From Paenibacillus polygoni (lineage in GTDB: Bacteria; Bacillota; Bacilli; Paenibacillales; Paenibacillaceae): a DNA stretch of 64,000 nt. Shown in pieces: positions 18,662-33,191 of the stretch (position 1 is its first letter; every line of letters begins with the position of its first letter). Made by a program: the position numbers and the translations under genes. The notes below the pieces were generated by a model. That model was given only the letters and a program-made list of their open reading frames with translations. It was not told the origin of the DNA and did no database searches. The stretch covers positions 3,543,501 to 3,607,500 of the forward strand of contig NZ_CP127162.1 in NCBI RefSeq assembly GCF_030263935.1, in the 5' to 3' direction.

Positions 18662-19519
18662 ATGAAGAAATTTGGTAAATGTATGTTATTAACTACTCTG
18701 CTTGGAGCAGGCTTAGTATTTGGGAATTCACAAGTGGATGCATCTTCTTCAAGTTCAAATAGTGTCAATGTACAGCTTAATGATAGTCTTGTTAATTTCG
18801 AAGATGCATCTCCTTTTTTAGATAATAATGCTAGAACGCAAGTTCCATTGCGTAAACTTGCAGAAGAAATGAATTATACCGTAAGTTCCTCTAAATCAGG
18901 ATCTACTACAACGGTTACTATTAAAAAAAATGGAACTACAATTAAAATCAAAACAGGTTCCACAACAGCAACAGTTAATGGAAAAAGTGTAAGTCTTGAT
19001 ACTCAAGTATTTATTCGCGACAGCCGTACATACGTTCCACTTCGTTTTGTATCCGAAGCTATGGGTAGTGACGTTGTTTGGAAAAAAAGCTATTCTCTTG
19101 TTATGGTAAGTACTACAGGTAAAACATACAGCCCGATTCTTGTAGGGAATGATCATGTAAAAGGAACGAGCATTGTTCAAGAAGCTACCAAATATATAGG
19201 TACACCTTATGTATATGGAGGTTCTACTCCAAGCGGATTTGACTGCTCTGGTTTCGTGAAATATGTTTTCGAGAAACACAACGTATCCCTTCCGCGTACA
19301 GCTGCTTCCATGTATAACACCGGAACTTCTGTATCAAAGAGTAATCTGAAACAAGGCGATCTTGTTTTCTTTAATACAACAGGTACTGTCTCTCATGTCG
19401 GCATCTACGTTGGAAACAATAGTTTCATTTCTGCCACTACTTCCAGTGGTATTAAAATCGACAGCCTGAGTAACACTTACTGGGGTCCTAAATATGTAGG
19501 AGCAAGAAGTGTACTTTAA
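18662..19519 (+). CDS. Secreted NlpC/P60 cell-wall hydrolase with copper-amine-oxidase-like N-domain
   Basis: Probable D,L-endopeptidase cutting peptidoglycan stem peptides outside the cell. The 285-aa precursor has a signal peptide (residues 1-27). A copper-amine-oxidase-like N-terminal domain follows (about 35-150, with ARTQVPLRKLAEEMNYTV and SRTYVPLRFVSEAMG), common in Paenibacillus exported proteins. The NlpC/P60 domain (about 168-285) has catalytic Cys in GFDCSGFVKYVF, His in VSHVGIYVG and a later Trp/Tyr-rich end. GGAGG lies 11 bases before the ATG. Upstream are a c-di-AMP riboswitch and WalR-like sites, tying it to cell-wall homeostasis. Confidence 0.93.
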   Translation: MKKFGKCMLLTTLLGAGLVFGNSQVDASSSSSNSVNVQLNDSLVNFEDASPFLDNNARTQVPLRKLAEEMNYTVSSSKSGSTTTVTIKKNGTTIKIKTGSTTATVNGKSVSLDTQVFIRDSRTYVPLRFVSEAMGSDVVWKKSYSLVMVSTTGKTYSPILVGNDHVKGTSIVQEATKYIGTPYVYGGSTPSGFDCSGFVKYVFEKHNVSLPRTAASMYNTGTSVSKSNLKQGDLVFFNTTGTVSHVGIYVGNNSFISATTSSGIKIDSLSNTYWGPKYVGARSVL

Positions 19520-19538
19520 TATAAGATTAGAATGATAA

Positions 19539-19834
19539 GAAGACATTCACTCCGCGTGTTGGAGTTGAATGTCTTCTTTGTCTTAGAAGTTTCTTACGGT
19601 GACTTCGGGTTGTACCCTGCTTTCGCTTCCAGCACATTGATTTGAAGGTGTGGAGATATGGGAGTATATTGTTCCTTTGGGGTGTAGTAATGTCCTACAG
19701 TGCCGCCTGAGGGCTCAGAACCAGGGTTTATTGTTATCTAATCATTTGCGATCACTACCTCTCATGATATGCGCTATATACAGTCAAAAAAAGGTACGGT
19801 CCCTCAATTACTTTTGAGGAGCCGTACCTTTTCT
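19539..19834. repeat. Two hairpins resembling the ends of the IS1182-type element, in inverted order
   Basis: The hairpin at 19539-19584 (starts GAAGACATTCACTCCG) equals the reverse complement of the hairpin inside the right end of the IS at about 59966-60006 with about 4 differences in 41. The hairpin at 19786-19834 (GGTACGG ... CCGTACC) closely matches the left-end hairpin at 58393-58442. Similarity continues outwards for about 20 bases (TTATGAG then AGA, CTTT and TCAG). Order and orientation fit an inverted IS lacking its transposase. Both hairpins also act as terminators, the first for the NlpC/P60 gene. Confidence 0.6.
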
Positions 19835-19940
19835 TTATGAGAGATCTTTATCAGGCATCTTTATGAGAACTCTTCATTAGAGGTCTTTATTAGTGACACT
19901 CTTTTAGAAGAATTCATTATTTCATCTCTAAACTGAATCC

Positions 19941-20612
19941 CTATTTTGTGAATACATGATTTCCTATTGTTTTTATAATAGGTCGTGCTTTACTCCAAGC
20001 CGATGTGGCAATCTTCGGATTGTAATAATAGAGCGCTCCCCCTGTTGGATCTTCCCCATTCAGCGCACGCTTTGCTGCTATATAGGCAGAGGAATTCGGA
20101 GTAAGGTTATACTGACCGTCATCCACCGCAGTAAACTGTCTAGGATGAAGGATAACATCTTTTATGGAACTCGGGAACTGATTAGACTGCACCCGGTTCA
20201 GGATTACAGCAGCTACTGCCACCTGTCCTATTAATGATTCTCCCCTTGCTTCCCCATTTACAGCTTTAGCCAAAGCATTCAGTGTAGCTCCTGAGGCAGG
20301 CGCCTTAGCCTTCAAAGCAGCTATCGTTCGCTTACCTGCCTTTCCATCGACAGCAAGACCACTCCGCTTCTGGAAGCTTTGAACAGCCTTCTCTGTCTGT
20401 GATCCATAGTATCCGGTTACTCCAGCAGATAAGTAGCCTAGCGTTCTGAGTCTCTCTTGCAGGTCTACCACTTCAGCGTGCTGAGTTCCTTTTTGAAGAA
20501 GCATTGCACTGGCCGGGGAAGCGGCTCCTACTGTACCTATTGCGATCGATCCGCTTAAAAGTAACCCTGCTGCGAATGTTTTCCATTTTTTGTTATGATT
20601 TAATTTGTTCAT
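19941..20612 (-). CDS. SleB/CwlJ-type cell-wall hydrolase with PG-binding domain
   Basis: A 223-aa exported hydrolase. After a signal peptide ending near SPASA comes a peptidoglycan-binding domain (LQERLRTLGYLSAGVTGYYG). A Hydrolase_2 (SleB-like) domain follows, with the catalytic-type Glu in AVNGEARGESLIGQVAVAAV and the terminal ALYYYNPK motif. ATG 20612 is chosen because the signal peptide starts there and GGAGG lies upstream; an ATG at 20639 lacks a site. It is a paralogue of the next gene. SleB-like enzymes are lytic transglycosylases of spore cortex, but vegetative roles occur. Confidence 0.88.
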   Translation of the reverse strand: MNKLNHNKKWKTFAAGLLLSGSIAIGTVGAASPASAMLLQKGTQHAEVVDLQERLRTLGYLSAGVTGYYGSQTEKAVQSFQKRSGLAVDGKAGKRTIAALKAKAPASGATLNALAKAVNGEARGESLIGQVAVAAVILNRVQSNQFPSSIKDVILHPRQFTAVDDGQYNLTPNSSAYIAAKRALNGEDPTGGALYYYNPKIATSAWSKARPIIKTIGNHVFTK

Positions 20613-20679
20613 ATATCCTATGACAACCTCCAGATTCATGATGTAAGTGTAATTGCGGGATCTGGCTTTGCCGATCCTG

Positions 20680-20723
20680 AAAAAAAAGCCGGGAGAAAGG
20701 GAATTTTCCTGCTTTCTCCCGGC
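20680..20723 (-). terminator. Terminator of the upstream SleB-like gene
   Basis: On the minus strand GCCGGGAGAAAG and CTTTCTCCCGGC form a perfect 12-bp stem followed by eight T. Confidence 0.93.
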
Positions 20724-20780
20724 GAAGTGTTATTTAAGTACCATCATTCTTACAAATTCAATATTTATTTTGTAAAAGAT

Positions 20781-21419
20781 TTATTTTGTGAAAACATGAT
20801 TACCAAGTCTTTGTGTAACGGGCCTAGAACTCATCCAAGAAGAGGAAGTGTACTTCGGATTATAGAAGTATAGAGCACCTTTAGAAGGATCATATCCTGT
20901 CAAAGCTCTGCGAGCTGCCTCATAGGCACCCGCTGTCGGCACACTTAGTTTGCCGTCCGCCGCAGGTGCAAATTGTCCTTTTTGAAAAATCACGTTCGTA
21001 ATAGCATTCGGAAATGCCGAGTTCTGAACACGATTAAGAATGACAGCACCTACTGCAACTTGTCCAGTAAATGATTCTCCTCCGGCTTCATCTTGAATAA
21101 TACCTGCCAGATGTTTTAACACTTTATTATTAATCGGCGCTTTGGCTTTCAGTTTGGCTTCTGTCTTGGGACCAACCTTTCCATCGATAGCTAAGTTGTT
21201 CACCCTCTGGAATTTCTTCACAGCTGCAACCGTTTTGTCACCATAGTAACCACTGATACCAGCCCAGAAATAATTTATTTTATTCAGTCTTTCTTGGACC
21301 TCAACTACTTTGGAACTTCTACTACCCTTCTGTAGTGTCGCAGCACTAGCCGTTGTTGATGCACCCAGTATAGAAAGAGCACAGGCACATGTTAAGATAA
21401 GTGTGGGTATTTTTTTCAT
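20781..21419 (-). CDS. SleB/CwlJ-type cell-wall hydrolase, paralogue
   Basis: A 212-aa precursor with signal peptide (residues 1-26, ending TASA), a peptidoglycan-binding domain (VQERLNKINYFWAGISGYYG) and a Hydrolase_2 domain (IIQDEAGGESFTGQVAVGAV, KGALYFYNPK). It shares architecture and most motifs with the adjacent downstream gene, so the pair arose by tandem duplication. GGAGG precedes the start. A perfect WalR-type box overlaps its probable promoter, which argues for vegetative wall metabolism rather than a purely spore role. Confidence 0.88.
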   Translation of the reverse strand: MKKIPTLILTCACALSILGASTTASAATLQKGSRSSKVVEVQERLNKINYFWAGISGYYGDKTVAAVKKFQRVNNLAIDGKVGPKTEAKLKAKAPINNKVLKHLAGIIQDEAGGESFTGQVAVGAVILNRVQNSAFPNAITNVIFQKGQFAPAADGKLSVPTAGAYEAARRALTGYDPSKGALYFYNPKYTSSSWMSSRPVTQRLGNHVFTK

Positions 21420-21517
21420 TAGTCTTACATATCCTCCGTTTCATTCGTGATCAGATGCCTTGCATCATAAAATCTCATCACTGAATTTGGCGGCGCTAAA
21501 AGTAACACCTAACGTGT

Positions 21518-21546
21518 ACTATAACATAAGTTACAATTTTGTTACA
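21518..21546 (-). promoter_or_regulatory. WalR-type box and -10 element of the SleB-like gene
   Basis: The minus strand reads TGTAAC-AAAAT-TGTAAC (21546-21530), an exact TGTWAH-N5-TGTWAH match. TATAGT follows at 21523-21518, preceded by TGT as in an extended -10. The box therefore sits at the -35 position, as in WalR-activated genes. Confidence 0.65.
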
Positions 21547-21559
21547 TCTGTCAATAGAC

Positions 21560-22777
21560 CTAATCTGCAAGTTCGATGCCTTTTGTTTCCTTTCCTAGCA
21601 CGAGTACCGCTGCTGCACCAACTAATACCGTAATAAAGAATAAGGTGAATATTGTGCTAAAAGAAACCCCTTTTTGGACCAAAAGACCTACAAGAAGCGG
21701 CGCAATCACGCCTCCGATTCGGCCAACAGACGCAGATAACCCCACGCCAGTAGAACGTGTTCTCAGCGGATATAGTTCCGGTGTATATGCATACATGCCT
21801 CCCCATGCGCCCAGGTTAAAGAAAGAAAGTGACATTCCTGCAATAATTAAGGATAATTCGGAGCCGGCATTTCCAAACCAAAGCGCACTAAATCCTGTCA
21901 TCACTAAATATACGACGAGTACAAATTTTCTCCCGAATTTCTCAATAAAGTAAGCCGCAGTAAAATAACCTGGCAACTGTGCGAGTGTCATAATAAGTAC
22001 ATACTGAAAACTTTTAACGAGTTCATACCCTTTGGACGTCATGACACTCGGCAACCATAAAAACATGCCATAGTAAGAAAATACAACCGTAAACCATAAG
22101 ATCCATAACATCAGCGTGGTCTTCCGATGTTCTGCAGACCAAACCGATTTAAATTTCTCTCCAAAGCTAACCTTTTTCAGTTCCTTTTTCTTCTTGAATT
22201 CAGGTGGGTCCTGAATGGCTTTGCGTAAGTACAGCGCGTAAAATGCCGGTAGTGCACCGATTAGAAAAGCTACACGCCATCCATACTCAGGAATGATGAA
22301 AAAAGAAATGAGAGCCGAAATAATCCAGCCTGCAGCCCAAAAACTTTCAAGCAGAACAACGGCTCGTCCTCTTTCCTTAGCGGATACCGATTCTGATACC
22401 AGCGTAGAGGCAACCGGAAGCTCTCCTCCAAGACCAATCCCGGCAACAAAGCGAATGAGGCAAAGGAACACATACCCAGTAGCTAAAGCTGAAAATCCGC
22501 TTGCTACCGAGAAAATAAGCAGCGTCCACATTAAAACGGCTTTTCTCCCATACTTATCAGCCAGTGTCCCTGCGAGGGCAGCTCCAACGACCATCCCAAT
22601 CGAAGTGGAACTTGAGATAAGCCCTACTTCGCCTGGACTAAGGAGCCATTCCTTCGCCAAAGCAGCTACGATAAAGGACATCATACCTACTTCCATGGCA
22701 TCAAACATCCAGCTCAGCCCAGCGCTAAAAAGCAGCTTACGTTGTTTCGGATTTTGTAAGACTTCGAGTTTACTCAT
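21560..22777 (-). CDS. niaP: MFS transporter, NiaP-like (niacin uptake)
   Basis: A 405-aa, 12-helix major facilitator. The sequence tracks B. subtilis NiaP (YceI) closely as I remember it: GLSWMFDAMEVGMMSFIVAA, GMGLGGELP-like AGIGLGGELPVASTLVSE, RGRAVVLLESFWAAGWI, FSYYGMFLWLPSVM and the GKETKGIE end. NiaP imports nicotinate, possibly other aromatic acids. No NiaR site was recognised. It is separated from the polysaccharide locus by a terminator. Confidence 0.8.
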   Translation of the reverse strand: MSKLEVLQNPKQRKLLFSAGLSWMFDAMEVGMMSFIVAALAKEWLLSPGEVGLISSSTSIGMVVGAALAGTLADKYGRKAVLMWTLLIFSVASGFSALATGYVFLCLIRFVAGIGLGGELPVASTLVSESVSAKERGRAVVLLESFWAAGWIISALISFFIIPEYGWRVAFLIGALPAFYALYLRKAIQDPPEFKKKKELKKVSFGEKFKSVWSAEHRKTTLMLWILWFTVVFSYYGMFLWLPSVMTSKGYELVKSFQYVLIMTLAQLPGYFTAAYFIEKFGRKFVLVVYLVMTGFSALWFGNAGSELSLIIAGMSLSFFNLGAWGGMYAYTPELYPLRTRSTGVGLSASVGRIGGVIAPLLVGLLVQKGVSFSTIFTLFFITVLVGAAAVLVLGKETKGIELAD

Positions 22778-22860
22778 CGTAATACTTTTGCTCCCTTATG
22801 TAATATATTTGAAGTGAAACCTATCATCTTATTTATAATGATTTAAGACAGCCTGTCAAC

Positions 22861-22914
22861 AAAAAAAGAGAACAGTCTGCTTATCTAAAGTAAGCATACT
22901 CTTCTCTTTTTTCT
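22861..22914. terminator. Terminator downstream of the polysaccharide locus
   Basis: AAAAAGAGAA and TTCTCTTTTT form the outer stem with an inner TGCTTA/TAAGCA stem. It can act on either strand and lies 37 bases after the last gene of the minus-strand locus. Confidence 0.8.
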
Positions 22915-22950
22915 ACTATCTTTTATTTCCGCAACAAGATTTAGGTTTTC

Positions 22951-23907
22951 CTATTTATTTTCTTTACGAACAAGAGATACATCATCCTTCATTTTCTTAT
23001 ACCACACTTCATAATGATGTACCGCAAGTCCTGCAAAGGACTGATGTTTTGTGCCAAGTTCAGCCGCTGTTTCCATCTCTGATTCCATATTCGGAACTGC
23101 TTTCCGGTAAAAAGTTAGATGTTCGCCTTCCTCGGTATGACCAAGCTCGGCACCGATCCATACCTTCTTGTCCAGCTCATCTGCTTCCGCAAGTTCTTCC
23201 TTGGAGAGATCGTACATTTGCTGACCGCTGTCTCGATAAGCCATGATGGCAATCGCATCAAATTGATCAATCATCCAACGACTAAGTGTCCCCTTACCAT
23301 CTGGACTTTCTCGTTTATCAAGCCAAAAAGGAACTGCTGCGCTCATATAGAGATTTCCTTCAGAACCTGCCTGAATCCACTCCTCTATATTTGCGCTCCA
23401 TTCTGTAATGACTGATTGCTCCTCTTGTTCCCAGCGCCGTAATTGATACGGCTCGACATCAAACTGTACACCTGCAAACTGCTCCTCTGGTGCTGCTTCC
23501 TGGTTAAATTTCTTTACCCATTCCACCCAGGCGGTGCCTTCTTCTCGTTTTTCTGTATAAGCCCAGTCTGCATGACCATTGAGTGCGTGGACTGAAATGT
23601 CGTGAGCTTGTGCTTCCGCATTGAAATGTCGATATGCTTCAGGGGACACACTTTCTTTCGTTTGCAGAAAAACAGTATTCACCTTTTGTTCTGCTAAGAA
23701 ATTCACAATTTCATCTGTACGCTCTTCAATGATCGAAGCATCCCATAGCCATGTCGCTTTATTTTCATTCACTTCAGGTGATTTCAGCATGAAATACAGG
23801 ATAAGTAAAAGGAAAAAGATCATGATACAGCAGCTTCCTTTTACCCATGCCGGCCATGAATTCCATGCGTATCCTCCTTTATTCGGCGGCTTCTGCGCAG
23901 TGTTCAT
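22951..23907 (-). CDS. Signal-anchored TIM-barrel-like protein of polysaccharide locus
   Basis: A 318-aa protein with a hydrophobic anchor (about residues 25-42, rich in Leu/Ile/Phe) and an extracytoplasmic domain. That domain has the look of a glycosidase or deacetylase-like barrel: WLWDASIIEE, KVNTVFLQTKESVSPEAY, GVQFDVEPYQLRRW and FDAIAIMAYRDSG are positioned like beta-strand ends of the GH18/GH-like superfamily, with acidic residues in FDVEP. The exact family is not recognised. It is the last gene of the unit; ATG 23907 lies just after the dehydrogenase stop and probably depends on coupling. Confidence 0.65.
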   Translation of the reverse strand: MNTAQKPPNKGGYAWNSWPAWVKGSCCIMIFFLLLILYFMLKSPEVNENKATWLWDASIIEERTDEIVNFLAEQKVNTVFLQTKESVSPEAYRHFNAEAQAHDISVHALNGHADWAYTEKREEGTAWVEWVKKFNQEAAPEEQFAGVQFDVEPYQLRRWEQEEQSVITEWSANIEEWIQAGSEGNLYMSAAVPFWLDKRESPDGKGTLSRWMIDQFDAIAIMAYRDSGQQMYDLSKEELAEADELDKKVWIGAELGHTEEGEHLTFYRKAVPNMESEMETAAELGTKHQSFAGLAVHHYEVWYKKMKDDVSLVRKENK

Positions 23908-23917
23908 CGTATCGTTT

Positions 23918-25282
23918 TTAAGCAAATACCGCTTCTTCCTGTGACGCTGCCGGATGCTGTACAGAATGGCCTATTTTATAAATGTGCGGTAATGGATATT
24001 CTTTGAATGCATTACGAGTGTCAAGTACAGGTACGCCCAGCGATGCGATTTCATCATACTCTAGGTTCTTATGGTTCGTAATTAATACGATGCAGTCATA
24101 TTCTTTGAATTTAACTGGGTTATACTCCACACTATGAACTGTTTCTCCATGTTTATCGCGGAAAGTATCTGCATACGGATCAAAGTATTCTACATTCGCA
24201 CCTGCTTCTTTAAAGAGCTCGTAAACTTCAAGAGCTGGAGATTCACGAAGGTCTGCAATGTTTGGTTTGTACGCCATACCGAGCAGCAAAATGTTCGATT
24301 TACGAATGGATTTCGCATATTCATTTAGAATGGTTGCTGTTTTGTTCATAACGTAATACGGCATATTCTCATTAGTGGATTGAGCAAGTTCAATAAATTG
24401 GCTGTAGAATCTAAAACCTTTCGCTTTCCAGGATAAGTACATTGGATCAAGCGGAATGCAGTGTCCACCGATACCTGGGCCCGGATAGAATGGCATAAAG
24501 CCAAATGGTTTTGTAGCAGCTGCGTCAATGACTTCCCAAATGTCGATTCCCATGCGGTCACACATCATTGCCATTTCATTTACAAACGCAATATTGATAC
24601 TGCGGAATGTATTTTCAAGCAGCTTGGACATTTCTGCAATTTTTGGATTGGATACAGGAACTACGGTTTCTACATACTGGCTGTACAGTGCTGCTCCGAG
24701 TTTTAAGCACTCTTCGGTAGTACCGCCAATTACTTTTGGTGTATTAAAAGTTGTAAATCTGCCGTTTGACGGATCGACGCGTTCTGGTGAGAAGCAGAGG
24801 AAATAATCTTCTCCTACTTTTTTACCAATTGCTTCAAGTTTATGCTCAATCAATTCTTCCGTTGTACCAGGATAAGTTGTGCTCTCAAGCGTGATGAGCA
24901 TACCTTCCTTCATATGAAGTTTGATTTGGTCTACCACGGTTTCAATGTATGATGTATCGGGATCTTGGTTTTCACTGAGCGGTGTTGGCACACAGATACT
25001 TAGTGCATCAATCACACGCAGCATGCTGTAGTCTGTTGTTGGCTGAAAACGACCGCTTTGCATTACTGTTTTCAGTTCTTCCGAAGAAATATCATGAATG
25101 TAGGACTCGCCTTGATAAATACTCTCCACTTTGGATGGGTCTAGATCAATACCGATTACCGTAAATCCTTGCTTTACCATTTCTACTGCGAGCGGCAGGC
25201 CAACATATCCTAGTCCTACTACACCCAACACGGCTTTCTTGTTTTCAATTGCGTTCATTAAATTATGGAATTGCTCTTTCAC
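23918..25282 (-). CDS. Nucleotide-sugar dehydrogenase (UDP-GlcNAc/UDP-Glc 6-dehydrogenase type)
   Basis: Oxidises a UDP-hexose to the corresponding uronic acid with NAD, supplying acidic sugar for polymer synthesis. In 454 aa, GLGYVG (23-28) is the NAD loop, LLENTFRSINIAFVNE holds the catalytic Lys/Asn partners, and the nucleophile is Cys275 in PGPGIGGHCIPLDP. SPERVDPSNG and the C-terminal KPNIADLRESPALEV resemble WbpA/WecC-type UDP-HexNAc dehydrogenases more than Ugd. GTG 25282 follows GGAGGGTG at 7 bases. Substrate is inferred. Confidence 0.9.
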   Translation of the reverse strand: MKEQFHNLMNAIENKKAVLGVVGLGYVGLPLAVEMVKQGFTVIGIDLDPSKVESIYQGESYIHDISSEELKTVMQSGRFQPTTDYSMLRVIDALSICVPTPLSENQDPDTSYIETVVDQIKLHMKEGMLITLESTTYPGTTEELIEHKLEAIGKKVGEDYFLCFSPERVDPSNGRFTTFNTPKVIGGTTEECLKLGAALYSQYVETVVPVSNPKIAEMSKLLENTFRSINIAFVNEMAMMCDRMGIDIWEVIDAAATKPFGFMPFYPGPGIGGHCIPLDPMYLSWKAKGFRFYSQFIELAQSTNENMPYYVMNKTATILNEYAKSIRKSNILLLGMAYKPNIADLRESPALEVYELFKEAGANVEYFDPYADTFRDKHGETVHSVEYNPVKFKEYDCIVLITNHKNLEYDEIASLGVPVLDTRNAFKEYPLPHIYKIGHSVQHPAASQEEAVFA

Positions 25283-25441
25283 AGTACTTCACCCTCCAAA
25301 TGGAATTTTAGGTAAGCAGGTTGCATCATTTGGTTGCGATGATACACAGCTCACATACTTTTTATGTGTTAAATCAGGACTACCTTATCAGTTTGAAATC
25401 TACTATTTTACAAGCTACGATTACTGTAAGTTCTATGATTT

Positions 25442-26248
25442 CTATTGAAAACAGCGGCGAATACGGGCATCGAGTTCCACAGGTGAAAAAGGTTTGGTTA
25501 CATAATCTTCTACACCTTTTTCAAAACACTGGGTGATGGTCTGCTCTACTCGCTGGTCTGTCAAAACAATTACTTTTGGCTGCTGTTTTAGATCCAGGTT
25601 TTGAATCTGATGGATAAAAGGAACTCCACTCATCCCGTACAAATTAAGTTCGGTCAGAATAAGATCCGGTTCCACTTTTACAGCCATATCGAGGGCACTA
25701 AGTCCATCCACTGCTTCATAAATGTCATACCCTTGCAAAGCAAGGCGGATTTGAAGAAATTCTCTTGTTGATTTTTCTTGATCTACAATGAGAATCTTAC
25801 CTGGCCGTACCGCTGTTTCATTTGGTGTATATAATTTGATATCTGCATCCGTACTGAGTCTTGCAGATTCAGCCATACTTTTCAGCATGTGTTTGCTTGC
25901 TTTCCCCATCTCAGGAAAACTTGCAATCGTCAGACGCGGATCTACACCTGGTAGCACTTGCATCAGACTCTGTTTGATTAACAGGGCCTGATAATGTGTA
26001 CGATTAAGTGACATAAAAGGAAGGAAGACCGCAATCGTATTTGACTGCGTATCTTTCCAGACCTGATATTCCGTTTCGCAGGTCCTTGTGAGAATATCCT
26101 GCAACTCCGCATCCGGCTGCTGGTCCCTATCCATGCAGTGAACAAACACAACGCCGCTGTTTTCGTTAGCCATTCCTTTTAGCTGCTCATCCAGAATGTC
26201 ATATACACTGTCCTTCACCTGGCGCTCAAGAGTTACTGTATTTGCCAT
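25442..26248 (-). CDS. Regulator: degenerate GGDEF-like N-region plus pseudo-receiver domain
   Basis: The C-terminal part (about residues 155-273 of the longest frame) is a CheY-like receiver: ILIVDQE, then LILTELNLYGMSG, VIVLTD and VTKPFSP. Counting from Thr235 and Lys257, the residue at the phospho-acceptor position is Glu205, not Asp, and the second acidic-pocket residue is Gln. The N-terminal 130 residues resemble a worn GGDEF fold (TIASFPEMGKASKHMLKSMA near its end) without a GGDEF motif. No output HTH is present. It may act as a protein-interaction or ligand sensor for the adjacent GT2. Start ATG 26248 has AAAGGTGG upstream. Confidence 0.75.
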   Translation of the reverse strand: MANTVTLERQVKDSVYDILDEQLKGMANENSGVVFVHCMDRDQQPDAELQDILTRTCETEYQVWKDTQSNTIAVFLPFMSLNRTHYQALLIKQSLMQVLPGVDPRLTIASFPEMGKASKHMLKSMAESARLSTDADIKLYTPNETAVRPGKILIVDQEKSTREFLQIRLALQGYDIYEAVDGLSALDMAVKVEPDLILTELNLYGMSGVPFIHQIQNLDLKQQPKVIVLTDQRVEQTITQCFEKGVEDYVTKPFSPVELDARIRRCFQ

Positions 26249-26290
26249 AAGACTCATCTCCACCTTTCAACATTTAACTTTTATCCTTAC

Positions 26291-27730
26291 TCAAGCAGCC
26301 TCTTCGGCTTTTGGTTCTTCCCAGCTTTGTCTTGTCATTGTGCCCCAAGAGTTGTTATTTTGCATAAACTGAATATGCCCTTGTACTCTCCAAAGAACGC
26401 CAAGCTGATGATAACCAACAAACTTTAGAGCAGAAAAAGCTAACATTTTTACAAGATCAGATGGTTTTGGATAACGGCGGAATGCAATCTCTTCGAGTAT
26501 CAAGGCTCCTACACTCAGCAGATAGCCGCTTAAGAAATTAAGAAGACCGAAAATGAGAAGTACAGGCCATGCCGTCATATCCAGCATAACGTAAGCCATT
26601 AAAGCTAGAAGTCCAGTAATCCGGAAATAAGGATTCAGTGCCTCGAAAAAGATGTTATACGGCATCGTGAGCATCCCCATTGTTTTATACTTGGGTCTGA
26701 ACATCATATTTCCGTTCTCCAGCATATTTTTCAGGTTTCCCCGACCCCAGCGTTTACGTTGATTCGAAATAATCTGGTACGTATCTGGAGCTTGCGTCCA
26801 GCAGACTGCCTCTGGACAGAATGCAATACGATACTTTTTCTTGTTGTCCAGCATATAGCGATGAAGCTTGATAATGATGTTCATGTCTTCTCCGGGATAT
26901 CCATCACGATATCCACCTACTGCAATAACAGCCTCTTTCTTAAATACTCCAAAAGCACCGGAAACGATAATCAGCCCATTTATTGAACTCCACCCAATCC
27001 GTCCGCCAAGGAACGCTTTTAAATATTCAATAGATTGAAACATCGGCCACATTTTACGCGGAAGTGACACATCTTTTACAGCACCATTTTCAATCTTGCA
27101 TCCATTTGCAATACGAACATCTCCGCCGATCGCAACGGTCTCTTCTGGATTCTCCAGATACATACGAGCCATACGAATCAGCGCATCCTTTTCAAGTAAT
27201 GAATCTGCATCAATCGATGAGATCAGAGGATAATGCGAGAAATTAATTCCAGCATTCAGCGAATCCGCTTTTCCGCCATTATTTTTGTCAATGAGATAGA
27301 GAAAAGGATAATCCGGGTTATGATATACGCCGCGAATCTGCTCACATCTGATCGTTCCGCGGAAAGTCGGATTTTGAACGGGTTTAAGTCCAAATTCTTT
27401 AATGAGTACAGGTATCGTCTTATCTGTAGAACCATCATTGACGACAATGACCTCATATTTCGGGTAGTTAAGTGTCATCAGACATTTTACGTTTTCTATA
27501 ATCGTCAATTCTTCGTTATACGCAGGTACCAAAAGCGAGATTGGAGGCACGACATCCGACCCCGCTAAGCTTTTAAAACTGGAATACTCTGCTCGGCGGC
27601 GAATTGTAAAGATATCTCTGTACGAAAAACATAAAATTCCAAAATATAAGACAGTAACAAAAATAACGTAATAAATGATAACCATTCCATAACCAAGCAA
27701 TATATCTCTAAGCAGTGAAATCCCCTCCAA
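26291..27730 (-). CDS. Processive family-2 glycosyltransferase (polysaccharide synthase)
   Basis: A membrane synthase that should polymerise a UDP-sugar and extrude the chain. The protein has an N-terminal helix, then the GT2 core with VVNDGSTD (97-104), DAD (174-176), GED (280-282) and QRKRW (324-328), the set seen in PgaC/IcaA, hyaluronan and cellulose synthases. Three or four C-terminal helices follow (about 350-450). No PilZ domain is seen. The gene overlaps the HEAT-repeat gene by 23 bases. The TTG at 27730 overlaps its own ribosome site (GGAGGGG), so the real start may be a CTG or ATG further on. Confidence 0.92.
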   Translation of the reverse strand: MEGISLLRDILLGYGMVIIYYVIFVTVLYFGILCFSYRDIFTIRRRAEYSSFKSLAGSDVVPPISLLVPAYNEELTIIENVKCLMTLNYPKYEVIVVNDGSTDKTIPVLIKEFGLKPVQNPTFRGTIRCEQIRGVYHNPDYPFLYLIDKNNGGKADSLNAGINFSHYPLISSIDADSLLEKDALIRMARMYLENPEETVAIGGDVRIANGCKIENGAVKDVSLPRKMWPMFQSIEYLKAFLGGRIGWSSINGLIIVSGAFGVFKKEAVIAVGGYRDGYPGEDMNIIIKLHRYMLDNKKKYRIAFCPEAVCWTQAPDTYQIISNQRKRWGRGNLKNMLENGNMMFRPKYKTMGMLTMPYNIFFEALNPYFRITGLLALMAYVMLDMTAWPVLLIFGLLNFLSGYLLSVGALILEEIAFRRYPKPSDLVKMLAFSALKFVGYHQLGVLWRVQGHIQFMQNNNSWGTMTRQSWEEPKAEEAA

Positions 27731-28907
27731 TAACCTCTGACATACGGCGAGTTTGTTTTTCTTTCGGTGAAGTTCCGAAATAATGTTGATAGATTAGTCT
27801 TTTCTTGTTTAATGTCATCATTTTTTCAACTTCTTCTTGGCCGTCAGCCGTAGCCATCGCACGCTCTGTATAGGCAAGAGCTGCTTCTCTAGCCGTACCG
27901 CTTGCCGTAGCCGCTGTTTCACAAAGCACTTCAAAACCGCGCACACCAAGTCCCGCAAGACTTTCTGCACTTTGATTACGCACAAGCAGTTCTGCATCAC
28001 TCAGTCCTTTTTGTAACAGCTGGATGCTGTCTTCCGTGTGGATGGAACCAAGAGCATTTGCCATTGCTGTTCTAACCTCAGGATTTGAATCTCGCATTAA
28101 CTCTTTCATCGTTTGATCCTTGAGTACGGGACCTCTGCTTAAATAAAGTTTAATCGCATCTGTACGGATGGTTTCATCCTTCGAACGGAACAACCGGATC
28201 ACAGCCGGCATCACTTCGGGAGAAGCATAAGCATAGGAAGCAACAAGCCCTACTTTTACATCATTATAGTGATCTGATTCAAGCAGTTCTTGCAGCAGAT
28301 TACTCGGTGTAAGACTCGTTTCCATCAGAATGTCAGCAGCGAGTTCATAAACTGGTTTTCCTTTATCAAGGAGATATCTGAGCATCTCTTTCAGTTCAGC
28401 AGGCCGTTCTGCACATTTCGCTGCCGCTCTGGCGTATATGACAGCATGTGCTACCTTTTTCTCTTCTTTTAGGACTTGCAGCAAAGCTGTTGTCGCTTCG
28501 GAAGCTCGTATTCCACCGAGCCTGTAAGCAGCTTCTATGGTTTTGCTGGTCGAGATGCTGTCAAGCTGTTTCATTTGCTTCGCAATATAACCCGTTTCCC
28601 TAGCTATGTCGCGTAGTTTTGCAGCATGCTCTCCTTTAATCTGATCATGGATGGCGATTAACCGATCCATAATGACTTCCTCTTCTATTTTTGTCAGTTT
28701 TCCTGGTGGAAGCTGAATTTTCTCATTCCCCGTGAGGTTTGCCTGAACATAAACGAAGTAATCCTTGTGTTTCCTTGTATACTCTTCTTTCTTGCGTTCT
28801 TTTGAATTGTGGGTCGTTTTCATCGTTATGAGCAAACCAATCCCCACGACAATGAGTCCTGCGCACAAATAAAGGAAAGTGTACGCCAGGGCCAAATTAG
28901 AAAACAT
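27708..28907 (-). CDS. Membrane-anchored HEAT-repeat protein
   Basis: A 399-aa protein with one N-terminal helix (about residues 8-28), a charged linker, and a long alpha-solenoid of HEAT-like repeats. Examples are TALLQVLKEEKKVAHAVIYA, EVMPAVIRLFRSKDETIRTD, and TAMANALGSIHTEDSIQLLQ. No catalytic motif is present. AAAGGAGG lies 10 bases before the ATG and overlaps the end of the previous gene. Tight coupling to the GT2 suggests a scaffold for the synthase or for the regulator. Confidence 0.85.
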   Translation of the reverse strand: MFSNLALAYTFLYLCAGLIVVGIGLLITMKTTHNSKERKKEEYTRKHKDYFVYVQANLTGNEKIQLPPGKLTKIEEEVIMDRLIAIHDQIKGEHAAKLRDIARETGYIAKQMKQLDSISTSKTIEAAYRLGGIRASEATTALLQVLKEEKKVAHAVIYARAAAKCAERPAELKEMLRYLLDKGKPVYELAADILMETSLTPSNLLQELLESDHYNDVKVGLVASYAYASPEVMPAVIRLFRSKDETIRTDAIKLYLSRGPVLKDQTMKELMRDSNPEVRTAMANALGSIHTEDSIQLLQKGLSDAELLVRNQSAESLAGLGVRGFEVLCETAATASGTAREAALAYTERAMATADGQEEVEKMMTLNKKRLIYQHYFGTSPKEKQTRRMSEVIGGDFTA

Positions 28908-28923
28908 GGATAAGTATCCTCCT

Positions 28924-31188
28924 TTATTTTTGCTCTGTTTGTAATTCTGAGTATGTTTCTTTCATGAGATCATAGCTCTTTTTAAAACGTTCACTATAAT
29001 TCACAGTTTCCCATGGGTCCCATGTATAAGCCTGAATGTCTTGTATATCAAATGTATCCTCTGTGCCTCCAGGCCAAGATACGTTGCCGTTGCTCAGATC
29101 CGTCAGCCAAGGGATCAGCCGAATTCCTTCCGTTGTTACCGTCTGAAATTCCTTGTTTTCTGTTAACGGACTGTAATCAATGACCTGCAGTGAACTTGGA
29201 TCTCCAAAACCAAGCAGCATCCACGGAATGCGAACCTCTATTTCTTTTCCTTCATACTGCCAAAGAGTTAGTGAATCGTAATCAGCAGCATCGGGGTTGG
29301 TCGTACCCCGGTTTAATAGGCCTACAACTTCATCCATATAAGGATGGGCATATTTGGTATCAGGCGGATTCATCAACAGACTGATGGCCAGCTTCCAAGG
29401 AACGAACGACGGTGTATCCTTTGTTTGCTCCTCCAGCATCCAGTAACCTTCCGGTCCGTATAATCGCTGATTAAAGTCATAGCTTTTTGCGATCGCTACT
29501 TCCGATTCCTTGTCGCTACCTATTGTAATCAGCGTTTCCAGATCTCCGCCTTTCAGTGTTTTACCTGGAAGAGATTCAAGCGGCTGATTGCCGCCAGGAA
29601 GTGTATCTGTACCGATATTTAGCTTCGTTTTAGATGGATCGAAAGGTTCATCAAGTGTGATCCCCATATATAAGTAAGCTTCATCATGAGTTAATTGGAT
29701 ACTCTCGATACCTTCTGTTTTTCCCTGCCAAAGCTGAATTTGCTCAGCTGGAAGCTTGGACCAATCACCCAGTTTCCCATCGATAAACAGCTGGTTTTGT
29801 TTGCCTGCTTCCATGGCGAGAATGCCGAACATCTTCTCATTTGTGAGTACGTTCAGCCAGTAAGCTTTACGATCTGCAGGAATTTCGAGTGGCATCGTAT
29901 TCCACGTCTTTTTAAACCACTCATCCTGCCACATGAAGAGAACAGCTCCCGCATATCCTTCGTCAAAAATGTCCTTGGTTAGCGACTGGTTAATCTCGCC
30001 TTGCTCCTGCTCATTATGACCGCCTTGATCTTTACCTCCAGGACCATAATGTGAAATGCCGAGAGAAGACGGAACTCCGTATTCTGTAATCATTATAGGT
30101 AGATCGGGAAACTCGGATTTAAGCTTACGTAAGTACGCTTTGTACGTGTTGTATTCCCCTTGTTCATCTTTTATCGTCTGCAGCGTTTTGTCTGTACGGA
30201 AGAAGTCTGGATAATAAGGATAGACGTGATAGGCTGCAAAATAACCGCCTTGCCAATTCACAGGTTCAATATGTCTCGCATCTACGCTTACCAAATCTTC
30301 TTCAAATAAAGGCTCGCCTGGATGTTCAAGCACATCGGTTGTAACCCAGTTGGTAAACGTTAATGGGTGTTCCCATCCGTATTTCTGTTCTTCCTTAGCT
30401 ACTTCATCCAGCAGCTCAGCAAGCCAGTTCTCGAAGGGGCTCGCCTCTTTTGTACCTGAAAAGTGTTCTCCCTCATAACGAGGATGATCCGAGTACTTGT
30501 TATTCGTATCCTCTACCATCTCCGGGTCCCACTCGGTACCCAAATGCCATGCTAGCAGATACTGGCCCACATTTGCTCTGTACTTACCGCTCGATTCTCC
30601 ATTCACATGCGGGATATCCGCATCTCCATACACTGCCGATACTGCCTTTTTTATTTCTGCTTTAAATTTTTCTTCAATTCCTTCGGCAAAAGCGTCCTTT
30701 TGCTCAATCAATTGTTCTTCTGGTGACCAGATTCCTTGCATGAAGTACAGCGGGTGTTCCTTGCCTTTGTTATACTCAGCGAGCGCTGAATAAAACACGG
30801 GCTGATGAACGGTATAGATGCGGATTACATTAGCACCCAGATCTTCAATCTGTTGAAACCATCTAAGATAATCTTCTTTTACTAGCGGAAATTCACCTGG
30901 GTAATGACCCGGTTTCGTTGAACCCAGGTTAACCCCCTTCACAAACAGTTCTTGCCACTGTCCTTCCTGGCTGTATTGTAAGAACTGATTGCCTTCTGTT
31001 TTGAATTTCAGCTTCGTTCCGTCTTCTGCTGTAAAAGTATTTTGTGCTGGTTTCAAGTAGGAGTATGCCGCCCATCCTCCACCGCCAAAAATAAGAATGC
31101 CAATTAAGATGCCTACAGCAAATCGTTTTCTTTGTCGTCTGCTCATGGTTTCCTGGTTCGCTCCACTTCTAAAATCATTCTTAGTCAT
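28924..31188 (-). CDS. Membrane-anchored glycoside-hydrolase-like protein with C-terminal CBM9/DOMON-like domain
   Basis: A 754-aa extracytoplasmic protein on an N-terminal anchor (about residues 24-45). Residues 80-440 look like a clan GH-A (beta/alpha)8 barrel: GVNLGSTKPGHYPGEF, LGANVIRIYTVHQP, WHLGTEW with Glu219 as possible acid/base, and PIMITEYGVPSS with Glu369 as possible nucleophile. Residues 460-700 resemble a beta-sandwich sugar-binding domain (FIDGKLGDWSKLP). It is the first gene of the locus and could trim or release the polymer. ATG 31188 has its ribosome site far upstream behind a hairpin; the ATG at 31146 (after CCAGGAAACC) is an alternative start. Confidence 0.78.
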   Translation of the reverse strand: MTKNDFRSGANQETMSRRQRKRFAVGILIGILIFGGGGWAAYSYLKPAQNTFTAEDGTKLKFKTEGNQFLQYSQEGQWQELFVKGVNLGSTKPGHYPGEFPLVKEDYLRWFQQIEDLGANVIRIYTVHQPVFYSALAEYNKGKEHPLYFMQGIWSPEEQLIEQKDAFAEGIEEKFKAEIKKAVSAVYGDADIPHVNGESSGKYRANVGQYLLAWHLGTEWDPEMVEDTNNKYSDHPRYEGEHFSGTKEASPFENWLAELLDEVAKEEQKYGWEHPLTFTNWVTTDVLEHPGEPLFEEDLVSVDARHIEPVNWQGGYFAAYHVYPYYPDFFRTDKTLQTIKDEQGEYNTYKAYLRKLKSEFPDLPIMITEYGVPSSLGISHYGPGGKDQGGHNEQEQGEINQSLTKDIFDEGYAGAVLFMWQDEWFKKTWNTMPLEIPADRKAYWLNVLTNEKMFGILAMEAGKQNQLFIDGKLGDWSKLPAEQIQLWQGKTEGIESIQLTHDEAYLYMGITLDEPFDPSKTKLNIGTDTLPGGNQPLESLPGKTLKGGDLETLITIGSDKESEVAIAKSYDFNQRLYGPEGYWMLEEQTKDTPSFVPWKLAISLLMNPPDTKYAHPYMDEVVGLLNRGTTNPDAADYDSLTLWQYEGKEIEVRIPWMLLGFGDPSSLQVIDYSPLTENKEFQTVTTEGIRLIPWLTDLSNGNVSWPGGTEDTFDIQDIQAYTWDPWETVNYSERFKKSYDLMKETYSELQTEQK

Positions 31189-31194
31189 CGTAAG

Positions 31195-31224
31195 GCAAAA
31201 ACGAGTTTTGCAATGCCTCCCTTT
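31195..31224 (-). promoter_or_regulatory. Displaced ribosome site with intervening hairpin
   Basis: AAAGGGAGG (31224-31216) lies 27 bases before ATG 31188. The hairpin GCAAAA-CTCG-TTTTTGC (31211-31195) sits between them and would bring the effective spacing to about 10. A TTG-started 10-codon ORF overlapping the ATG is another reading. Confidence 0.4.
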
Positions 31225-31338
31225 AATTTACAGATTGCCTGCAATGCAGAATCGGATTCTGTCGTTTGGCGAATGTCTGTAACTTCTCTATTAACTATAT
31301 CGCCAAGCTTTCCCTTTTGTAACTAGGCTAATGGAAGC

Positions 31339-31418
31339 AAAGATGGATTGGATAATATTGCCCAGTTTCAAAACCTGATCCTGGGTTTAGGGGCCGATCA
31401 TCCTAAAAATCCATCTTT
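31339..31418 (-). ncRNA. Compact three-way-junction element in the polysaccharide-locus leader
   Basis: An 11-bp perfect stem (AAAGATGGATT/AATCCATCTTT, 31339-31349 and 31408-31418) closes two adjacent hairpins, CCCAG/CTGGG (31361-31385) and TTTAGG/CCTAAA (31386-31407), joined with no spare bases. The two loops carry TGATC and GATCA, which can form a 5-bp kissing contact. It lies within the predicted 330-nt leader of the minus-strand operon. No known riboswitch consensus fits. Confidence 0.55.
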
Positions 31419-31527
31419 CTTTTTACGGCTCTGTCTACAGCAAAGCAACAACTGAACTTTTCCCTAAGTTATCAAGGAAAATCCTTACTCATCAGTAGTT
31501 ACAGCCCTGTTTTCCTTCCCTTCCGCC

Positions 31528-31556
31528 TATATAATGTAACGCATGTAATCATCCAA
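31528..31556 (-). promoter_or_regulatory. Probable promoter of the polysaccharide locus
   Basis: On the minus strand TTGGAT (31556-31551), 17 bases, TATATA (31533-31528). Transcription would start near 31521, giving a long leader before ATG 31188. The rest of the 31.19-31.95 kb gap shows a TTGGCGA/TCGCCAA hairpin (near 31258-31300) but no gene. Confidence 0.5.
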
Positions 31557-31903
31557 AGTTGCTATTTGTTTACAATTTTGACCCTAGTTATTACAAAATT
31601 GATACTATAGTCCGATATCAAAAACGCGAAAATCCTTGATATATCAGCATTCTTCAAAAATCAAACTTTACAAAAAAATCGGATGGTCCTGTATCCAGGA
31701 CATATTTATTTAATTTCCCTTAACATTCTGCTTATCTTCTCCTGATTTCTGACTCCCTGGTCTCAAATCACTCGCTTTTTATGTTAAAAACCGAGTCCTT
31801 TTTCCTAATTTCTAAGCCTTTCCGAGTATTTCAGAAAATCTCATTTCTTTTCAAAAAAATTCCGGTTGCTGGATGTATATTTCTCCGTTATTCTTATAAA
31901 ATA

Positions 31904-31917
31904 AGAACATGTGTTCT
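31904..31917 (+). promoter_or_regulatory. LexA (SOS) box of the polY cassette
   Basis: AGAACATGTGTTCT holds the GAAC-N4-GTTC palindrome of the LexA/DinR operator, 33 bases before the polymerase start codon. Confidence 0.8.
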
Positions 31918-31949
31918 AATACAGAACGAATGAAGAGGAGTATGGTCTT

Positions 31950-33191
31950 ATGGAGCGGAAAAAACGTGTGATTATGCTGGCGGACTGTCAGTCTTTTTAT
32001 GCCAGTGTGGAGAAGTCAGCCCATCCGGAGTATACGAGTCGCCCCCTTGTCGTTGCAGGTGATCCGGCTCGCAGGTCCGGCATTATTCTTGCAGCCTGTC
32101 CACTGGCCAAGACCTACGGAATTACCACAGCCGAGCGCTTGTCAGATGCCATTGCCAAATGCCCTGATGTCGTTGTAGTAAAACCTCGTATGGCAGAATA
32201 TATCCGGGTTTCTCTCCATATTACAAGCATTTTCCAATCCTATACGGATCTTGTCGAGCCCTACAGCATTGATGAACAATTTCTTGATGTAACAGGGAGT
32301 CTAAGGCTATTCGGTTCACCAGAAGCAATCGCCCGCCAGATCCAGCAGCAAGTTTGGCTCGAAACCGGAGTACGGGTGCGAATTGGAATTAGTGATACCA
32401 AAGTTGTGAGCAAAATGGCCTGTGATTTGTTTGCGAAGAAAAATAAGACCGGAATCTATATTCTTCCGAAGGAAGAGATAGCCGATAAACTCTGGTCTAT
32501 GCCCATTCGAGATATGTTTATGGTCGGCTCGAGAATGGCTCATCATTTTTATAAGATGGGTATTCATACGATTGGGGATTTAGCTCGCACTCCTCTCCCT
32601 CGCCTGCGTGACCGCTGGGGTGTCAATGGGGAAGTCTTATGGCGTATTGCGAACGGAATAGATGATTCGCCGGTAAGACCCGGCACTTTTATGCAGCAGC
32701 AAAAAGGAATTGGTCACCAAATGACCCTTCCGAGAGACTACACTACATGGTCAGAGATTCGTGTTGTGCTACTAGAACTGGCTGAACTTGTTGCAAGAAG
32801 GGCTAGGGAGAAAGGACTTATGGGCCAGGTTGTATCTGTAGGCTGCCGCGGAACCGACTTTGACAAACCCACTGGTTTTTCCAGACAAATGAAAATAAAG
32901 GAACCGACGCAAATTACCGCAGAAGTCTATAACGCAGCCTGTGAGTTATTCCAGCGCTACTGGGATGGTCAGCCCGTAAGAAGAGTGGGTGTGTCTCTTA
33001 CAGAACTGGTCCCTGATACGGAATATCAATTAACCTGGTTTGATAACCGGGAGCAACAACGGGAACTTGATAAAGTAACTGACGCGATCAAACGCAAGTT
33101 TGGAGACACTGCTATTATTCGTGCTTCCTCTCTTGAGCATGCAGGTCAAATACATGATCGTTCCCGCAAAATTGGAGGTCACTATCGATGA
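31950..33191 (+). CDS. Y-family DNA polymerase (UvrX/YqjW type)
   Basis: Error-prone translesion polymerase expected in the SOS response. In 413 aa, the metal-binding motif ADCQSFYASVE opens the palm, and SIDEQFLDVTG carries the catalytic Asp-Glu pair. A helix-hairpin-helix segment (TIGDLARTPLPRLRDRWG) and a little-finger domain follow. The N-terminus and YolD neighbour place it with UvrX/YqjW rather than DinB/YqjH. AAGAGGAG precedes the ATG; the last 4 bases overlap the yolD-like gene. Confidence 0.93.
   Translation: MERKKRVIMLADCQSFYASVEKSAHPEYTSRPLVVAGDPARRSGIILAACPLAKTYGITTAERLSDAIAKCPDVVVVKPRMAEYIRVSLHITSIFQSYTDLVEPYSIDEQFLDVTGSLRLFGSPEAIARQIQQQVWLETGVRVRIGISDTKVVSKMACDLFAKKNKTGIYILPKEEIADKLWSMPIRDMFMVGSRMAHHFYKMGIHTIGDLARTPLPRLRDRWGVNGEVLWRIANGIDDSPVRPGTFMQQQKGIGHQMTLPRDYTTWSEIRVVLLELAELVARRAREKGLMGQVVSVGCRGTDFDKPTGFSRQMKIKEPTQITAEVYNAACELFQRYWDGQPVRRVGVSLTELVPDTEYQLTWFDNREQQRELDKVTDAIKRKFGDTAIIRASSLEHAGQIHDRSRKIGGHYR

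Follow-up and report, generated by a model that had tools for sequence, protein, structure and literature searches.

A six-gene locus on the minus strand of a 64,000-nt stretch of the Paenibacillus polygoni genome (hereafter the window, that is, the whole stretch) probably encodes a synthase-dependent exopolysaccharide machine in which a HEAT-repeat protein is a subunit next to a family 2 glycosyltransferase (GT2). As far as we searched, this system is a conserved, apparently undescribed variant of synthase-dependent exopolysaccharide assembly, and related gene sets are common in Bacillus-like bacteria. The reading builds on gene content, gene order, their conservation and the motifs of the encoded proteins, as well as on a modelled fold for the product of gene 1; the polymer, the complex, its topology and its regulation are predicted from these. 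The six open reading frames (ORFs), with all coordinates given as window positions, are:

28924..31188, minus strand: gene 1 (GHA), an anchored protein with a modelled GH-A fold, 754 aa (likely 740 aa from 31146), with a beta-rich C-terminal part, Glu219 and Glu369
27708..28907, minus strand: gene 2 (HEAT), a HEAT-repeat protein of 399 aa with a single N-terminal hydrophobic segment (residues 11-29)
26291..27730, minus strand: gene 3 (GT2), a synthase with NDGS, DAD, GED and QRKRW motifs; its probable CTG start at 27715 overlaps the end of the HEAT gene
25442..26263, minus strand: gene 4, a putative regulator with a C-terminal receiver domain, Glu205 at the acceptor position, and an N-terminal GGDEF-like domain without GG[DE]EF
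23918..25282, minus strand: gene 5, a nucleotide-sugar dehydrogenase with Cys275, closest to UDP-N-acetylmannosamine (UDP-ManNAc) dehydrogenase models
22951..23925, minus strand: gene 6, an anchored GH-like protein in which Asp156 and Glu158 (DVEP) are invariant, homologous to PDB 10yv

In the ORF list, all six genes run in this order from 31188 to 22951, and the spacings from gene 1 to gene 6 are 16, -23, 27, 159 and -8 nt. This bears out the first-pass annotation, which had described six genes on one strand with overlaps and short gaps; the GT2 motifs DAD, GED and QRKRW and Cys275 of the dehydrogenase were also located as it had claimed. The true start of gene 1 is probably at 31146, judging by a conserved MSRR-like start, and the 159-nt gap 5' of the dehydrogenase gene may leave room for an internal promoter.

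The cassette is conserved well beyond the window genome. In a survey of 148 genomes of the family, the HEAT protein had a match at E 0.001 in 59 genomes and below 1e-30 in 42, the window genome included. Loci (denoted by L and a number) were fetched from 30 of the other 41 genomes with strong HEAT matches, and all 30 contain the HEAT, GT2, receiver and dehydrogenase genes in the same order on one strand. The GHA gene lies directly upstream in 29 of these; the exception is L064, where it is found downstream, fused to the gene 6 domain. When named genomes were scanned with the GHA alignment, 575 places were confirmed, and the best 80 of these (including 12 of the 30 family loci) belong to Paenibacillus, Fontibacillus, Cohnella, Brevibacillus, Aneurinibacillus, Ammoniphilus and one Neobacillus mesonae. 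In 79 of these 80 named loci, the genes for HEAT, GT2 and the receiver follow one another in this order on a single strand; the exception, L138, is a truncated 4.6-kb contig. By our own ORF calls, the spacing is -253 to 115 nt between HEAT and GT2 and -82 to 278 nt between GT2 and the receiver gene. The dehydrogenase is encoded in 66 of the 79 and missing from 13, where the order is HEAT-GT2-receiver-GHA.

At the level of the window's class, 107 of the 398 sampled genomes had a GHA match (E 0.001), and GHA was also found in two records named Clostridia among the matches listed. A set of 40 class-level places in 39 genomes was selected with GHA as the criterion rather than HEAT or GT2; one of these is the window genome's own paralogue, and three coincide with loci already fetched (L219 with L142, L220 with L145, L221 with L064). 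Within this set, 30 loci encode a GT2 of the family (>300 bits), 31 GT2s in total, and every one of the 31 is directly preceded by a same-strand HEAT ORF (family profile, E <=5e-5). The neighbourhood of HEAT and GT2 that the first-pass annotation had proposed to check in other genomes holds in all three samples, and its notion of an operon-like unit representing a distinct synthase system is supported.

The window genome itself encompasses a paralogous locus with a gene 6 relative beside it:

L182:4965-13578 (C1 about 4867464-4876077): DUF4956-CotH-GHA2-HEAT2-GT2b-VTC

GT2b shares 36% identity with the window GT2 and retains the motifs of that protein; GHA2 is 26% identical to the window GHA and has Ser at both Glu positions; VTC is a polyphosphate polymerase domain. 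CotH, a poly-phosphate polymerase and DUF4956 are listed as accessory genes of Gram-positive Pel operons (PMC7112168), and such Pel-like accessories may tie the HEAT-GT2 module to exopolysaccharide, by association only. The Gram-positive Pel system (pelDEADAFG), which is reported to share the CotH, VTC and DUF4956 accessories with the paralogous locus, differs from the window system, in which the polymerase is a GT2; the Pfam and NCBIfam matches of the six proteins include no Pel family, Pel proteins not having been used as queries.

The HEAT repeats of gene 2 exceed the Pfam cut-off, which together with the single hydrophobic segment agrees with the membrane HEAT-repeat protein of the first-pass annotation. 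The GT2 contains NDGS98, DAD174, GED280 and QRKRW324, that is, the D, DxD, ED and QxxRW motifs from which processivity is predicted, and these residues are invariant in 16 of 16 aligned sequences. The GT2 probably starts with the CTG at 27715, which follows shortly after GGAGG and overlaps the end of the HEAT gene; such a start is seen in 38 of the 79 named loci, and in several species, there is no in-frame ATG, GTG or TTG nearby upstream of it. HEAT and GT2 are encoded very close together, and therefore their translation is likely coupled. Identity to the window protein ranges from 27 to 48% for HEAT and from 62 to 80% for GT2, and the faster divergence of HEAT suits a structural partner of the GT2, without proving it. 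In the window genome, HEAT_2 matches occur in six genes, two of which lie directly before one of the 18 GT2 matches. As a separate observation, in one Paenibacillus group (L050, L051, L066, L067, L095 and L130, with L051 and L095 being the same locus), the HEAT ORF stops at about 251 residues, so that the anchored N-terminal half remains.

On our best reading, the system falls outside the ica, bcs and pss/yda types. The highest-scoring NCBIfam model for the GT2, IcaA/PgaC (TIGR03937), yields 139.6 bits, far below the cut-off of 422.3, and no deacetylase family passes among the six proteins. The cellulose synthase BcsA model (TIGR03030) yields 43.9 bits against a cut-off of 699.1, with no PilZ match among the window proteins. 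For the XrtG systems (TIGR03111, TIGR04145), the GT2 and GHA matches are both below cut-off (109.7 versus 363.95 for the GT2 on the XrtG-linked TIGR03111, for which a literature search found no paper), and no exosortase is among the matches listed for the six proteins. Listeria pssA-E is reported to have a BcsB orthologue and a cyclic di-GMP (c-di-GMP)-binding degenerate GGDEF protein (PMC4125290); for B. subtilis ydaJKLMN, a c-di-GMP receptor and a putative glycosyl hydrolase are described alongside ydaLMN (PMC13274460). Both resemble the window locus in having one GT2 and a linked glycosidase-like gene, and gene 4 may be the counterpart of their c-di-GMP receptor (in pss, the degenerate GGDEF protein). 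They are set apart by these descriptions rather than by comparison of the proteins: pss has the BcsB orthologue and the c-di-GMP-binding PssE, whereas the window locus has the HEAT subunit and a sugar dehydrogenase. None of the six proteins has a BcsB-like Pfam match at E 0.1, a search in which the Listeria and B. subtilis proteins were not compared directly, and the yda parallel drawn by the first-pass annotation is accordingly a loose one. A literature search found no account of a HEAT-GT2 system; supplements and most subscription papers were outside its reach, and a description may exist elsewhere.

As to the sugar, gene 5 scores best with two UDP-ManNAc dehydrogenase models (267.5 and 248.7), followed by TviB (198.6), AglM (159.8) and TuaD (148), all under the respective cut-offs, and its PDB matches are headed by UDP-ManNAc-uronate dehydrogenase and Cap5O. 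As a control, the two other dehydrogenases of the window genome come out as TuaD-like (489.6) and TviB-like (420.2). With UDP-ManNAc models outscoring TuaD and a separate TuaD-like enzyme present, the label of UDP-glucose dehydrogenase is not favoured for gene 5. The same evidence bears on a hyaluronan-like or type-3-capsule-like synthase, in which gene 5 would be that enzyme and the single GT2 would alternate N-acetylglucosamine (GlcNAc) or glucose with glucuronic acid. Such a synthase would fit the sharing of one operon by the GT2 and a sugar dehydrogenase, the GH2 beta-glucuronidases and galacturonidases among the structural matches of GHA and the glm genes of relatives, which fit GlcNAc supply; we nevertheless regard it as unlikely, given that the TuaD score of gene 5 is 100-120 bits below the UDP-ManNAc dehydrogenase models and 51 below TviB, in a genome with its own TuaD-like enzyme.

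Genes for precursor supply accompany some of the related loci. At least one of glmS, glmU (often the uridylyltransferase part only) and glmM is present in the fetched stretch of 29 of the 80 named loci, and all three follow the dehydrogenase gene in L143, L145, L146, L147 and L148; representatives of glmS, glmU and glmM were confirmed by NCBIfam. Full-length glmS is present in two or three copies in all 14 genomes chosen for a locus glmS, versus one in the window genome, and glmM in two copies in all 11 genomes chosen for a locus glmM, again versus one (15 and 12 distinct genomes, respectively, the window genome included in each). The place of the glm genes in the locus varies with the lineage, which suggests repeated recruitment: in Cohnella they lie upstream of GHA, in loci lacking the dehydrogenase they lie upstream of HEAT, in Brevibacillus and others they follow the dehydrogenase gene, and elsewhere they are found between gene 6 copies. 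The type of dehydrogenase and the glm genes of relatives make plausible, without proving it, the polymer with an N-acetylhexosamine (HexNAc)-uronic acid that the first-pass annotation had envisaged, and we put the chances of the HexNAc-uronate part of the model at about even.

The phospho-acceptor position of gene 4 is occupied by Glu in 69 and by Asp in 10 of 79 sequences, and neither the window protein nor the nine relatives listed contain RxxD; no c-di-GMP site is recognised in the window operon. Some relatives differ: the cassette of L185 and L209 (Litchfieldia salsa, 100% match) combines a GGEEF regulator with HEAT, GT2 and GHA and also includes a histidine kinase and a stand-alone receiver, with the L185 regulator comprising, by Pfam, receiver, GGDEF and receiver domains. 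Among the 14 regulators listed, 6 keep GG[DE]EF, and 5 of these 6 also carry RxxD at the spacing of an I-site. In the window lineage, the decayed part is, to judge by these residues, the GGDEF domain, with the motif lost and the phospho-acceptor Asp mostly replaced by Glu, and we infer with moderate confidence that gene 4 descends from a diguanylate cyclase and has become a fixed subunit. The first-pass annotation had assumed that HEAT replaces the c-di-GMP/PilZ partner, which would make the system independent of c-di-GMP because of HEAT. The window proteins include no PilZ and no Pfam GGDEF match, as this would require, but HEAT stands beside a receiver-GGEEF-receiver protein in L185 and L209; HEAT is therefore common to both states, and we rejected it as a substitute, an explanation to which we assign very little probability.

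An AlphaFold model and structure searches support a GH-A fold for gene 1, with a barrel and two candidate catalytic residues, Glu219 and Glu369, that are invariant in 42 of 42 aligned sequences, in line with the anchored GH-A-like enzyme of the first-pass annotation. The best structural matches include GH2 beta-glucuronidases and galacturonidases, and the fold is similar to those of GH157 and GH2, but identity is only 17-18%; none of 16 GHA members has a Pfam family, and PDB sequence searches with GHA, alone or as a profile, gave no match up to E 1. Residues 469-514 show a weak Firmicu-CTERM match (19.1 bits, cut-off 50). The closest named proteins come from Paenibacillus sp. J45TS6 (97% identical) and P. 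gallinarum (95%), and the named relatives among the matches listed are annotated as hypothetical, uncharacterised or 'family 2 glycosyl transferase'. The gene 6 profile matches a protein of solved structure, PDB 10yv, whose deposit names it a putative GH97 (E 2.4e-31; a literature search found no paper on it among those listed), which lends indirect support to the earlier description of gene 6 as barrel-like. An association of the N-terminal extension of long GHA proteins with gene 6 was tested and not found. At L221:16071-19148 and L201:9196-12237, GHA and the gene 6 domain are naturally fused into a single protein, and in L058 a protein of 596 aa matches gene 6 twice.

GHA and the gene 6 product each carry a membrane segment at the N-terminus, and proteins with GH folds can transglycosylate. 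These features, along with wall-hydrolase-like genes (by eye) downstream, would also suit a cell-wall-bound glycopolymer, of the secondary wall polymer or teichuronic-acid-like kind, that is not released and to which GHA and gene 6 would contribute as attaching transferases. We consider this improbable because in none of the six proteins does Pfam detect a lipid-carrier transferase, flippase or LCP-type domain and because the GT2 has the motifs of a processive synthase.

In the synthase-dependent machine that we prefer, gene 5 would oxidise UDP-GlcNAc, perhaps first epimerised to UDP-ManNAc, to a UDP-HexNAc-uronate, and the GT2 would polymerise HexNAc and/or HexNAc-uronate and thread the chain through its own membrane helices. 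HEAT, with one membrane helix and a probably cytosolic solenoid, would act as a partner of the synthase, holding or gating it, and gene 4, probably derived from a receiver-GGDEF-receiver diguanylate cyclase, would not produce c-di-GMP but serve as a regulatory or structural subunit. On the outer side of the membrane, GHA and gene 6, both anchored GH-fold proteins, would trim, transfer or anchor the nascent chain. More broadly, it seems a balanced possibility that these loci form an unnamed Gram-positive synthase class in which HEAT is coupled to GT2 and the core includes GHA and a receiver/GGDEF regulator. Such systems would be spread through the bacterial class of the window genome and range from cyclase-linked to dead-scaffold forms, and the branch with the dehydrogenase would make a HexNAc-uronate polymer, several lineages having their own UDP-GlcNAc supply genes.

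Several points weigh against this interpretation. The polymer, the complex and the regulation are predicted from sequence; GT2 and the dehydrogenase are under every named equivalog cut-off, and GHA has no family. Neither the window locus nor the Paenibacillus loci closest to it contain a glm gene, and the dehydrogenase is missing from 13 of 79 named loci, so a uronic acid cannot be general. GHA occurs with no family GT2 in view in 10 of the 40 class-level loci and therefore also works elsewhere; in L192, the first Glu is missing from a second GHA-like protein, which together with the double Ser of GHA2 means that hydrolysis may not be needed. The degenerate GGDEF domain of gene 4 is the weakest item of the first-pass annotation. 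For it speak the collinearity of the window-type profile with GGEEF proteins over 230 columns (E 1.4e-26), the motif-less intermediates found with the GGDEF profile of relatives in a 14-sequence set (L205, 8e-38; L193, 7e-8; L190, 7e-5; L208, 9e-4) and the predicted N-terminal domain, in which helices and strands follow the GGDEF order. Against it, Pfam finds no GGDEF in 16 gene 4 members, the N-terminal domain compared alone is not significant, the same profile comparison reaches E 3.1e-27 with the receiver by itself, and the GGDEF profile of relatives finds no window-type protein (best E 0.064). The matches listed in a structure search with the gene 4 model are all receiver domains, and the search therefore bears on that part of the protein.

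If the interpretation is correct, many genomes harbour an exopolysaccharide machine so far undescribed, whose synthase has a HEAT solenoid as a new kind of partner, and the natural series from active cyclase to inactive regulator offers a test of how a synthase leaves c-di-GMP control; the machine is also a possible source of an acidic amino-sugar polymer.

Candidate expression signals flank the locus:

31294..31323, minus strand: a sigma-70-like promoter, GTTACA-18-TATAGT, a consensus match only, adjoining a block conserved in close relatives
22861..22913, minus strand: a predicted intrinsic terminator 3' of gene 6, a stem-loop followed by a T run, z -4.45

The terminator stem-loop has a folding energy of -24.4 kcal/mol, and 0 of 200 shuffles were equally stable. 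The TATAGT of the promoter-like site is kept in 9 of 10 aligned sequences (the window counted), and sigma-70-like sites in the region are not above chance (18 found versus 18.9 expected). The conserved block CTTCCAT.AGCCTAGTTAC abuts this site, and another, TTGTAAT...TGTAAA...CAACTTT, is located in the leader at 31553-31600 on the minus strand, well upstream of gene 1. A search of 21000-33000 against Rfam gave no match up to E 1 and hence no known riboswitch. Near cassettes without the dehydrogenase, in L132, L135 and L142 (first 5 kb), there are genes that resemble, by eye, a UbiA-type prenyltransferase, a small EmrE/ArnE-like protein and a membrane glycosyltransferase. Downstream of the window locus, at 18662-21419, three genes resemble, also by eye, wall-hydrolase proteins (NlpC/P60-like, SleB-like).

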